Assembly: GCA_943329845.2 (NCBI GenBank)
Contig: CALQFM020000001.1
Coordinates: forward strand, 1-64,000
Origin: Candidatus Kuenenia stuttgartensis
GTDB lineage: Bacteria; Pseudomonadota; Alphaproteobacteria; SMXS01
Reading direction: 5' to 3'
DNA length: 64,000 bases
Below the pieces are notes generated by a model. The model ran no database searches. It saw only the letters and a program-made list of their open reading frames with translations, and had not been told where the DNA came from. Shown here one piece after another: positions 13,352 to 18,023 of the stretch (its first letter is position 1; each line of letters starts with the position of its first letter). The position numbers were made by a program, and so were the translations under genes.

Positions 13352-13456
13352 GGGAGCCTCGGAACGGTGCGGAACCAGCGCCGTTTCTCGCATCCCCGCG
13401 CGTTCAATCAAGACTTTTCCGGTCATCCGCCCTATTTTCCCCGGGGGAGAAACCGC

Positions 13457-15904
13457 ATGCCGACGAAGAAGCCCGCCGAATCCGACGCGCCCGTCCACCT
13501 GCCGTTGCCCGCCAGCGCGCTGTGCGGGCGGTGCGACGCGAGCACGCTGGGGTTCGAGACCACCGCCGAGCTCACCGAGGCCAACGGCGTCATCGGCCAG
13601 CAGCGCGCCATCGAGGCCATCGAGTTCGCGCTGGGCATGGACAAGCCGGGCTACAATTTGTTCGCCGTCGGCCCGCGCGGCACCGGCAAGTACCGGCTGG
13701 TGCGCGACCTAGTCGAGCGGGCGGCGTCGAAGCAGACGGCCGAACGCGAGTGGGCCTATGTCTACAATTTCGAGGACGAGCGCCGCCCCAACGCGCTGTC
13801 GCAGCCCGCCGGCCGCGGCGCGGCCTTCGCCGAGGCCATGGAGCAGCTGGTGCGGGACGTGCGCGCGGCGCTGACCAACGCGTTCACCAGCGAGGACTAC
13901 CGCAACGCCGTCCAGGCCATCCAGGACGAGGTGGAGCGGCGCCAGAACGCGGCGCTGGAGGCGCTGCGCGCCGAGGCGGCCGAAAAGCACATCACCCTGC
14001 TGAACACGCCCATGGGCATGGGCTTCGCGCCGCTGGAAGGCGGCAAGGTGATGGACCCGGAGAACTTCGCCAAGCTGCCCGAGGACGAGCGCAAGCGCAT
14101 CGAGGAAGACATAAGGGCGCTGCAGGAAGGCCTGCGCATCGCCATGCAGAAGATGCCCGCGGTGCTGCAGGAGGTGCGCGAGCGCATCGAGGCGGTGAAC
14201 GAGGAGACCGCCGAGTTCGCCACCGGCGGGCTGGTGCGCGCCGTGCAGGAACGCTACGCCGATCTCGAGGAGGTCGCCGCCCATCTGGAACGCGTCCATG
14301 CCGACCTGAAGGACAGCGTCGACCTGTTTCTGAAGGCGCAGAAGCCGGCCGACGACGACAAGGCGCCGGGCAGGGGCCGGGACCCTGAGAGCTATTTCCG
14401 CCGCTATCTGGTCAACCTGATCGTCGAGCACGCGGCCGGCGGGCCGGCGCCCGTGGTCTATGAGGACGAGCCCACCTATGAACGGCTGATCGGCCGCATC
14501 GAGCAGCGGGTGGAGATGGGCACGCTGGTGACCGACTTCAGCATGGTCCGAGCCGGCGCGCTGCACCGGGCGAATGGCGGCTACCTGCTGCTCGACGCGC
14601 GCAAGGTGCTGATGCAGCCGATGGCCTGGGAGGCGCTGAAACGCGCGGTGCGGGCGAACGAGATCCGCATCGAGCCGGTGTTCGGCGCCATGGGCCTGCC
14701 GGTCACCACCATGCTGGAGCCCGAAGCGATCCCACTGCGGGTGAAGATCATCCTGCTGGGCGAGGGCAGCATCTACTATCCGCTGCACGCCTATGATCCG
14801 GATTTCCCCGGCCTGTTCAAGGTGATGGCCGACTTCGACGAGCGGGTGGTCCGCGACGCCGATACCATCCAGAAGATGGCGCGGCTGATCGCCGCCCGGG
14901 CGCGCAGCGATGACCTGAAGCCGTTCCACCGCATCGCGGTCGCCCGGCTGATCGACGACATGTCGCGCGAGGAGGAGGACAGCGAGCGCCTGTCGGCCAA
15001 TGTGGAGCACCTGACCGACCTGATGCGCGAGGCTGACTACCTTGCCGGCAAGACCGGCCGCGAGGTGGTCGAGGCCGCCGACGTGGATGCCGCCATCGAT
15101 GCGCGCCGTCGCCGGGTCAGCCGCATCTCCGAGCGCATGCAGGCCGAGATCGTCCGCCAGACCATGCTGATCGACACCACGGGCGCGGTGACCGGCCAGA
15201 TCAACGGCCTGTCGGTCTATTCCATCGGCGCGGCGTCGTTCGGCAAGCCCAGCCGCATCACCGCCCGCGTCTGGCTGGGGCGCGGCGACGTGCTCGACAT
15301 CGAACGCACGGTGGCGCTCGGCGGGCCGCTGCATTCCAAGGGCGTGCTGATCCTGTCGGGCTATCTGGGCGCGCAATATTCCCAGGACATGCCGCTGTCG
15401 CTGTCGGCCAGCCTGGTGTTCGAGCAGTCCTATGGCGGCGTCGACGGCGACAGCGCCTCGTCGGCCGAGCTCTATGCGCTGCTGTCGGCGCTGGCCGAGG
15501 CGCCGATCTTCCAGCATTTCGCGGTCACCGGATCGGTCAACCAGCGCGGCCAGGTCCAGGCCATCGGCGGCGTCAACTACAAGGTCGAAGGGTTCCTCGA
15601 CCTGTGCGCCCAGCGCGGCCTGACCGGCAGGCAGGGCGTGCTGATCCCGACCGCCAACGTCAAGCACCTGATGCTGCATCACCGGGTGATCGACGCGGTC
15701 GAGGCGAAGCAATTCCATATCCATGCAGTCTCGAGCATCGACCAGGGCCTCGAGATCCTGACCGGCGTGGCGGCCGGCAAGGCGGATGCGAACGGCGTGT
15801 TTCCGCCGGGCACCATCAACGCGCGCGTCGCCGACCGGCTGCACGGTTTCGCCCAGGCACGGCAGCGCTTCGGCCAGCCGCCACGGTGGGAAGGCGACGC
15901 ATGA
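13457..15904 (+). CDS. Lon-like AAA+ ATP-dependent protease (LonB/AAA_32 type)
   Basis: The 815-residue protein has an N-terminal AAA_32-type ATPase with Walker A GPRGTGKYRL near residues 74-83, in which a tyrosine stands where Thr or Ser is usual. A long helical insertion follows (about 100-310), then GALHRANGGYLLLDARKVL. The C-terminal Lon protease domain (about 560-770) carries the catalytic Ser in DGDSASSAE and the Lys in GGVNYKVEGF. No substrate-binding Lon N-domain is present. The gggggaga site supports the ATG at 13457. The gene is coupled by ATGA to the next gene, which may encode a partner. It degrades unknown proteins in the cytoplasm. Confidence 0.9.
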   Translation: MPTKKPAESDAPVHLPLPASALCGRCDASTLGFETTAELTEANGVIGQQRAIEAIEFALGMDKPGYNLFAVGPRGTGKYRLVRDLVERAASKQTAEREWAYVYNFEDERRPNALSQPAGRGAAFAEAMEQLVRDVRAALTNAFTSEDYRNAVQAIQDEVERRQNAALEALRAEAAEKHITLLNTPMGMGFAPLEGGKVMDPENFAKLPEDERKRIEEDIRALQEGLRIAMQKMPAVLQEVRERIEAVNEETAEFATGGLVRAVQERYADLEEVAAHLERVHADLKDSVDLFLKAQKPADDDKAPGRGRDPESYFRRYLVNLIVEHAAGGPAPVVYEDEPTYERLIGRIEQRVEMGTLVTDFSMVRAGALHRANGGYLLLDARKVLMQPMAWEALKRAVRANEIRIEPVFGAMGLPVTTMLEPEAIPLRVKIILLGEGSIYYPLHAYDPDFPGLFKVMADFDERVVRDADTIQKMARLIAARARSDDLKPFHRIAVARLIDDMSREEEDSERLSANVEHLTDLMREADYLAGKTGREVVEAADVDAAIDARRRRVSRISERMQAEIVRQTMLIDTTGAVTGQINGLSVYSIGAASFGKPSRITARVWLGRGDVLDIERTVALGGPLHSKGVLILSGYLGAQYSQDMPLSLSASLVFEQSYGGVDGDSASSAELYALLSALAEAPIFQHFAVTGSVNQRGQVQAIGGVNYKVEGFLDLCAQRGLTGRQGVLIPTANVKHLMLHHRVIDAVEAKQFHIHAVSSIDQGLEILTGVAAGKADANGVFPPGTINARVADRLHGFAQARQRFGQPPRWEGDA

Positions 15905-16752
15905 CCGGCGCGCCTGTCTCCACGGAAAGCGTCATCGACCGCAAGGGCGGCCGGAAGCGGCATGTGGTCAGCCGCGTGGTGCTGACCATCGAGGCCGAAT
16001 CGCTGGGCGGCGAGGCCATCGACACCGCCGTGCGGCTGGCGCGCGCCTACCGGGCCGAGCTGGTCGCCCTGTTCGTCAAGACCAGCGACATGATCAACAT
16101 GGTGTCGCTGCCGTTCGGCGCGACGGTGACCAGCCGGGGCGGAGTCACCCGGCAGATCGACCGGACCATGCTCGACCACCGCCTGGACCGGCTGGCGCAC
16201 CAGGCCGAGGCGGCGCTCGCCCGGGCGGCGTCGGGCCTGCGCTGGTCGTTCCGCACCGCCACCGGGCATACCGAACAGGTGGCCGCGGGCGAGGTGCTGC
16301 AGGGCGACCTGCTGGCGATCTGCTCGCGCACCGCGCGGCACGTCAGCGAGGCGGTGGGCGCCATGGCCTGCTCGCTGCTGCTGCTGGGCGACGGGCTTGA
16401 TAGCCAGGGCCGGGGCCGCGACCGGCCGGTGATCGCGCTGTTCGAAGGCGACACGGGCGTGCTGGGCGTGGCGCGGGAGATGGCCGAGGCCTTCGGCAGG
16501 GAGCTGGCCGTGGTGCTGCCCCACGGCATGGACGCCCGGGCGCGCCGACGGGCGACGGACTGGCTGTCGCGGCGCGGCCTGCCGACCCGGCTGCTGCAGT
16601 TCTCCGAGCCGGACGGCGCCGCGCTGGCGGCCGAGCTGGCGGACCTGCGGCCGGGACTGCTGGTCATGGACCGCGACGCGGCTGCCTCGCGGCAGGTCCA
16701 GCGGACATTTGAAACCGAACGCCGCCCGGTGCCGTTATTACTGGTGTCATGA
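15901..16752 (+). CDS. Uncharacterised protein coupled to the Lon-like protease (tandem USP-like halves)
   Basis: I do not recognise a named family. The 283-residue soluble protein has no membrane segment. The first half (about 20-140) looks like a universal-stress-protein type alpha/beta unit: a beta strand VVSRVVLTIEAE, a long helix with GEAIDTAVRLARAYRAELVALFV, then DLLAICSR. The second half (about 165-283) repeats the plan: DRPVIALFEGDTGVLGVAREMAEAFG ... LLVMDRDA. Its start overlaps the protease stop (ATGA), so the two are translated together. It may be an adaptor or substrate of the protease; this is inference from position only. Confidence 0.6.
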   Translation: MTGAPVSTESVIDRKGGRKRHVVSRVVLTIEAESLGGEAIDTAVRLARAYRAELVALFVKTSDMINMVSLPFGATVTSRGGVTRQIDRTMLDHRLDRLAHQAEAALARAASGLRWSFRTATGHTEQVAAGEVLQGDLLAICSRTARHVSEAVGAMACSLLLLGDGLDSQGRGRDRPVIALFEGDTGVLGVAREMAEAFGRELAVVLPHGMDARARRRATDWLSRRGLPTRLLQFSEPDGAALAAELADLRPGLLVMDRDAAASRQVQRTFETERRPVPLLLVS

Positions 16753-17205: not shown

Positions 17206-17595
17206 CTAACGAATAACCTGAACCAGCACGCCGACTGACTCGGCGACGCCCGCCCAGGCGCGGTCCGTCGTGATGGCGGGCAGGTCCAGCCTGTCTGCGA
17301 GGGCAAGGCACGCGCGGTCCCCCAGCGACAGACCGGCCGCTCGCGTCCGCGGCTCGAGCAAACCGGCATGGAGGGCAAGCTGATCATCGAAGTCCGCCCG
17401 CTCGATGGCTACCCGCGTGAGCACCGCGCGGATCGTTTCCTCCGTGGCGCCCTTGCGTGCGAGAAACCCGACGACCTCGGCGAGATTGACCGTCGAGATG
17501 ACGGCACCCTCAAGCATCGCCTCAACCTTTTCCCAACCAGGCTCTTGTCGCAGCAACGCCACCAGCGCCGATGCATCCAGCACGACGCCCGTCAT
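17206..17595 (-). CDS. VapC-type PIN-domain toxin ribonuclease
   Basis: The 129-residue product is a compact PIN domain. The acidic metal-binding residues are seen in VVLDASALVALL (first Asp), NLAEVVGFL (Glu), LSLGDRACLALA (Asp) and ITTDRAW (Asp), the full catalytic set. VapC toxins cut specific tRNAs or rRNA when freed from antitoxin. The ATG at 17595 overlaps the antitoxin stop by four bases. A longer open frame to 17886 is only the antitoxin gene read in another frame. Confidence 0.9.
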   Translation of the reverse strand: MTGVVLDASALVALLRQEPGWEKVEAMLEGAVISTVNLAEVVGFLARKGATEETIRAVLTRVAIERADFDDQLALHAGLLEPRTRAAGLSLGDRACLALADRLDLPAITTDRAWAGVAESVGVLVQVIR

Positions 17596-17843
17596 TCCTT
17601 CGCCGCCTCGCGCCGACGCTCGGCGATTAGTTCGTCGGACCACAGGTCCGTGCTGTCGCCGGCCAGCTGGCGAACCAGCGCCTGCGCCCGTGCGACTCCC
17701 TCGCGCAGCGTACGGATGCGAAGATCGTTGCCATCCATTTCCATGATTACCGTGCCGCCGCCGTCCAACCCCATGGCGCGTCGGACCTCGGCCGGAATGC
17801 TGACCCTTCCCGACGCCGATACTTTGACACGAATATTTTTCAT
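17592..17843 (-). CDS. VapB-type antitoxin with AbrB/SpoVT fold
   Basis: The 83-residue protein starts MKNIRVKVSASGRVSIPAEVRRAMGL, the swapped-hairpin AbrB/MazE DNA-binding fold. It ends in a charged tail (WSDELIAERRREAAKE) that would wrap the toxin. It neutralises the neighbouring PIN toxin and represses its own operon. The start at 17843 is chosen because the AbrB fold begins there; an upstream in-frame start at 17903 would add residues not seen in the family. The flanking bases 17844-17900 are less GC-rich than the surroundings, as expected for an acquired module. Confidence 0.88.
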   Translation of the reverse strand: MKNIRVKVSASGRVSIPAEVRRAMGLDGGGTVIMEMDGNDLRIRTLREGVARAQALVRQLAGDSTDLWSDELIAERRREAAKE

Positions 17844-18023
17844 GGCATGACTGAGCTTTATGGCATGGATGGATAATTTGGCACAAACCGGGTTCAGATA
17901 CAATTTTCCTGGTTCCGGCGCCGGCCCGGCCCTCGCGCTTTACGCGACGCTGGCCGAGCGCGCGCCCAGGGTTTAGGCTTCGCGCCGCCGCCTTGGGAAA
18001 CAGTTCACAGCGAGGGAAATCCG

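Follow-up and report, generated by a model that had tools for sequence, protein, structure and literature searches.

The window, a stretch of DNA of 64,000 nucleotides, contains two overlapping genes on the forward strand, the first coding for a Lon-type protease and the second for a protein related to the universal stress proteins (USPs). Below, the latter is referred to as the partner. Both genes were located on this strand where a preliminary description based on the sequence had placed them, with the ATGA overlap that it gave.

13457-15904, + strand: gene for a LonC-type Lon protease, 815 amino acids (Pfam AAA_32, LonB_AAA-LID, LonC_helical, Lon_C)
13670-13696, + strand: degenerate Walker A motif GPRGTGKYR, residues 72-80, aligned with GPPSLGKHE of MtaLonC
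14576-14599, + strand: degenerate Walker B motif GGYLLLDA, residues 374-381, aligned with GYLILDA of MtaLonC
15452-15454, + strand: catalytic Ser666 (GDSAS), invariant in 61 of 61 partner-bearing LonCs
15581-15583, + strand: catalytic Lys709 (NYKVEG), invariant in 61 of 61 partner-bearing LonCs
15605-15628, + strand: LonC-specific insertion CAQRGLTG, fitting the published consensus CX3GLX(G/E)
15901-16752, + strand: gene for the tandem USP-like partner, 283 amino acids (family profile against TTHA0350, E=3e-25)
15964-16395, + strand: N-terminal USP-like half, residues 22-165, with a conserved extra segment around FV(E/K)..LL...LPF
16417-16749, + strand: C-terminal USP-like half, residues 173-283, defined by the structure model and half-versus-half homology

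The partner start and the LonC stop share the ATGA at positions 15901-15904, and a Shine-Dalgarno-like GGAAGG is located just 5' of the partner start, within the end of the LonC gene. The same overlap of -4 recurs for 31 of the 49 partners of the window's class and for all six partners of the Thermaceae (-4, ATG). Therefore, the overlap is not a matter of chance.

A LonC protease and a diverged tandem USP

All four domains of the protease scored above the Pfam cut-offs, with 46.7 bits versus 24 for LonC_helical, and the closest solved structures were those of MtaLonC from Meiothermus taiwanensis and the TTC1975 peptidase from Thermus thermophilus (E 1e-89). LonC is a described subfamily with degenerate Walker A and B motifs, no ATPase activity, and the protease-domain insertions CX3GLX(G/E) and phiX2Aphi that are specific to it (PMC3391209). 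With MtaLonC and TTC1975 the window protein shares the domain order, the LonC_helical domain and the LonC-specific insertions, the second of which is represented by VIDAV at the aligned place in the protease domain. The degenerate Walker motifs and an Asp-preceded Ser-Lys dyad are likewise common to the three proteins. Indeed, the dyad is intact in the window LonC, GDSAS and NYKVEG aligning with MtaLonC, while no Thr or Ser follows the Lys of Walker A and an Ala occupies the usual place of the catalytic Glu after the Asp of Walker B. Judged by its domains, insertions, dyad and degenerate Walker motifs, the window protease is a LonC, and not a LonB, the type to which the preliminary description had compared it; against the LonB equivalog TIGR00764 it reached 116 bits, where the cut-off is 517. 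The lack of a Thr or Ser in Walker A, correctly read before, had been taken as a possible sign of altered ATP use. That it is special to this gene was rejected, since the altered motif occurs throughout LonC: most of 187 LonCs have a residue other than Thr or Ser behind the Walker Lys/Arg, and the Lys is often replaced by Arg (see also PMC3391209). MtaLonC has no ATPase activity and, without ATP, breaks down proteins that are unfolded while leaving well-folded ones intact (PMC3391209). By analogy with MtaLonC, the window enzyme is probably ATP-independent as well.

Taken alone, the partner scored 13.6 bits against Pfam Usp, below the cut-off of 24, whereas 24 of 43 members of its family matched Usp at E values up to 0.1 (best 5.5e-17). 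A profile of these 43 sequences, the window protein plus 42 relatives encoded next to LonC (profile A2), matched the tandem USP TTHA0350 of T. thermophilus (PDB 3ab7/3ab8) along its whole length with E=3e-25. TTHA0350, which like the partner has two USP domains in a chain of about 270 residues, was the best solved relative both by profile and by Foldseek. The two similar USP-type halves that had been noticed in the sequence were borne out, as hhalign finds homology between them (E=8e-8) and an AlphaFold2 model built with nine sequences (pLDDT 71.5, pTM 0.51) predicts a USP fold in each of them. Modelled residues 173-283 gave a Z of about 11 and an rmsd of 2.2-2.7 Å against solved USPs, and residues 20-160 gave a Z of 10.9 and an rmsd of 2.8 Å against single-domain USPs; the relative arrangement of the halves is unreliable in this model, given its pTM. 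TTHA0350 keeps the ATP-binding motif in its first half (PMC3673472), whereas the motif G-2x-G-9x-G-(S/T) is absent from either half of the window partner. Of 63 partners, 4 have its strict form, among them three from Chloroflexota and Balneolota. The lack of the motif speaks against canonical nucleotide sensing by the USP of the window lineage. The partner is a diverged tandem USP. The superfamily of this protein, previously described as uncharacterised, is thus a known one, but the LonC-linked partners form a distinct branch within it.

These properties bear on two alternative roles. The partner could be a holdase chaperone, holding substrates in an unfolded state close to LonC, and not regulate the protease. 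Chaperoning is not known as the established role of the USP fold, and we regard this role as improbable, even though a holdase would be useful to an enzyme that accepts only unfolded substrates (PMC3391209). Alternatively, the partner might mainly be a substrate or autoregulatory target that is degraded when LonC is free, thereby reporting or limiting the protease load. The tight coupling of the synthesis of the two proteins and the strong divergence of the partner, which in most families is 15-30% identical to that of the window, would fit such a role. However, MtaLonC spares well-folded proteins (PMC3391209) and the partner is predicted to be mostly folded. In addition, conserved segments are kept in its N-terminal half, which is unlikely for a mere substrate. 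Accordingly, we give little credence to the substrate role.

Linkage of the partner to LonC

In a first survey, the partner was found in six of the seven genomes of the window's genus, the window's own included, and in one other genus of the family, and it follows LonC at the genus and family loci that were read. Within the window's class, LonC_helical is present in 102 of 289 genomes. A profile built by homology to the window partner alone, without reference to LonC (A1), gave 20 matches at E<1e-6 in these 289 genomes, all of them adjoining LonC; at one apparent exception, in genome G011, the LonC gene is cut by the contig end. With profile A2 and a threshold of E<1e-20, 48 genomes yielded 49 places; once the interrupted contigs of G077 and G191 had been accounted for, every one of these lay immediately downstream of LonC. 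It should be noted that A2 was made from LonC-adjacent genes and that its count is therefore partly circular, whereas the A1 count is unbiased. The next 34 places found with A2 (E 5e-20 to 1e-12) are other, ordinary tandem USPs located elsewhere. When 100 LonC loci and the window were read, the partner was directly downstream in 49. About half of the LonC genes of the class have no partner, and LonC can therefore work without it. The loci L068, L081 and L095, which have an ordinary-looking tandem USP downstream, were excluded from the strict partner counts. Their LonCs form a branch inside the paired clade, and the tandem USP mostly lies at a larger gap; it may represent an earlier state or a replacement. 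No match to the partner was found in a plasmid collection.

When named genomes were scanned for LonC, 80 loci came up, and at nine of them the partner follows directly downstream. These nine belong to Chloroflexota, Balneolota, Deinococcota, Actinomycetota and Gammaproteobacteria, the carriers including Fodinibius roseus (Balneolota), Trueperaceae (Deinococcota) and Rubrobacter (Actinomycetota). The partner was missing at all sampled Pseudomonas, Pseudoalteromonas, Geobacter and MtaLonC-type loci, and the two Meiothermus loci nearest to MtaLonC have no USP-like gene nearby. A suspected proximity of TTHA0350 to the Thermus LonC TTC1975 was not confirmed, as its homologues at 14 Thermaceae loci (L225-L238) have no LonC within up to 1.5 kb on each side. 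Altogether, absence of the pair from close relatives, named in the preliminary description as a refutation, does not apply: the surveys at the levels of genus, class and phylum indicate that the proposed functional pair is conserved and probably functional.

In a FastTree phylogeny of 188 LonCs, all 61 paired LonCs fall within one subclade of 90 (support 97). The window LonC thus sits in a subclade far from MtaLonC and TTC1975, one with a coupled partner. The unpaired members of this subclade include apparent losses and truncated contigs. We considered whether they might have hidden, diverged partners, but the downstream open reading frames that can be recognised by eye look unrelated, examples being a dihydrouridine-synthase-like enzyme and a low-molecular-weight-phosphatase-like protein. 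Nor does the paired clade have a clear LonC domain, insertion or tail of its own; its signature is limited to 12 scattered positions. Six other Thermaceae genomes (L219-L224) hold both LonC and partner, and their LonCs are nearer to that of the window than to MtaLonC. Since in separate trees both the LonCs and the partners of these genomes group with the class loci L053 and L065, the sequences suggest that the pair was transferred as a unit into some Thermaceae. Over the pairs, LonC and partner distances correlate with r=0.76, a value attained in 0 of 2000 permutations, which is what joint inheritance alone predicts.

Upstream sites and low oxygen

13407-13438, + strand: candidate class II FNR/CRP-type promoter, conserved in the same-genus and same-family loci L083, L071 and L076

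This candidate consists of the half-site ATCAA (13407-13411), followed after 21 nt by TATTTT (13433-13438). At the window only the right half-site is present, the left FNR half-site being unrecognisable, and a scan of the locus for sigma-70 promoters and terminators found nothing. Among paired LonC genes, TTGAT-N4-ATCAA with at least 9 of 10 matches occurs upstream of 9 of 52, where dinucleotide shuffling predicts 0.4 (at most 2 in 60), and the perfect palindrome upstream of 4 of 52, versus 0.02 expected. Such boxes were not enriched at the unpaired LonC loci of the class (1 of 29 versus 0.6 expected), and 68 other loci had 3 versus 1.0 expected. The arrangement ATCAA, 21-22 nt, TAnnnT was present at 7 paired loci versus 0.25 expected, although four of the seven come from the window and close relatives of it and so do not count as independent. 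FNR/FixK-type palindromes or half-sites were seen upstream of paired LonC at L039, L040, L053, L065, L077, L079, L102, L111 and L138, some of them at class II spacing to a -10-like TA. The window genome also encodes, on contig C77, a CRP/FNR-family regulator with FNR-like cysteines (L242, 1486-2220, - strand), and it contains eight perfect TTGAT-N4-ATCAA palindromes versus none in a reversed control. One such palindrome lies close to the regulator gene on C77. The RpoH-like sigma factor of this genome has its nearest plasmid-record match in Azospirillum, which makes an alphaproteobacterium likely. From these sites, low-oxygen control appears plausible for part of the LonC-partner family; at the window locus it is unproven.

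Shared control could in itself account for the pair, if LonC and the USP-like protein were stress or low-oxygen proteins that are co-transcribed but act separately and make no contact. In Dinoroseobacter shibae the targets of FnrL include USP genes (PMC5398030), several USPs increase in Bradyrhizobium under microoxia (PMC6515984), and FNR-type sites precede part of the pairs. On the other hand, a merely co-regulated gene should sometimes sit elsewhere, which was the case for 0 of the 49 strong partner matches, and the partners form a branch of their own, mostly without the USP ATP motif. Shared regulation without contact is therefore rather unlikely in our view, though it deserves consideration.

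Possible joint function of the pair

The exclusive linkage, the translational coupling and what looks like joint transfer are consistent with a partner that acts on LonC or together with it. We consider it somewhat probable that the partner is a direct accessory protein that forms one functional unit with LonC, itself probably an ATP-independent Lon; the contact between the two is what we infer from these observations. Translational coupling would keep the amounts of both proteins matched. The partner would then most likely bind the LonC hexamer and control it, whether by letting unfolded substrates in, keeping them back or bringing them to the protease, thus supplying the control that a LonC without an ATP motor lacks. 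Its original role may have included the sensing of adenine nucleotides, because the first USP half keeps the ATP motif in some members from other phyla that branch close to the root of the main paired group; in the window lineage this motif is absent. Where the operon is activated by FNR/FixK, as it may be in part of the family, the pair would serve under low oxygen and scarce ATP. The full picture is that of a widespread motor-less Lon ring gated by a dedicated degenerate tandem-USP subunit; in part of the family it would be induced by low oxygen, and its ancestral form would have been tuned by adenine nucleotides. This picture is tentative and, taken as a whole, doubtful. In its proposed role as a dedicated controller of a ring protease, the partner resembles protease adaptors such as MecA of ClpC (cited in PMC9569914). 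The likeness concerns the role only: no kinship of sequence or fold is claimed, and LonC is not a working AAA+ motor.

LonC proteases and tandem USPs are already known, and the new element is the linkage of a USP-like partner to LonC. No description of a LonC-USP pair was found among the openly available papers searched. What LonC does in the cell and what USPs do at the molecular level are long-standing questions, which the pair makes testable together. If the partner binds and controls LonC, this would be a first defined job in proteolysis for a protein with the USP fold, and it would explain how cells avoid damage by a Lon without a motor.

Across families no third gene is common to the pair, the neighbours being shared only locally. 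By eye, a same-strand gene upstream of LonC at L044, L046, L051, L056, L057, L067, L075 and L085 resembles those for small zincin-type metallopeptidases, and a gene beside the pair at L074, L077, L118 and L125 resembles that for a host attachment protein. In the window itself, positions 17206-17903 (- strand) hold small overlapping genes that look by eye like a VapBC-type toxin-antitoxin system (PIN-like and AbrB-like).
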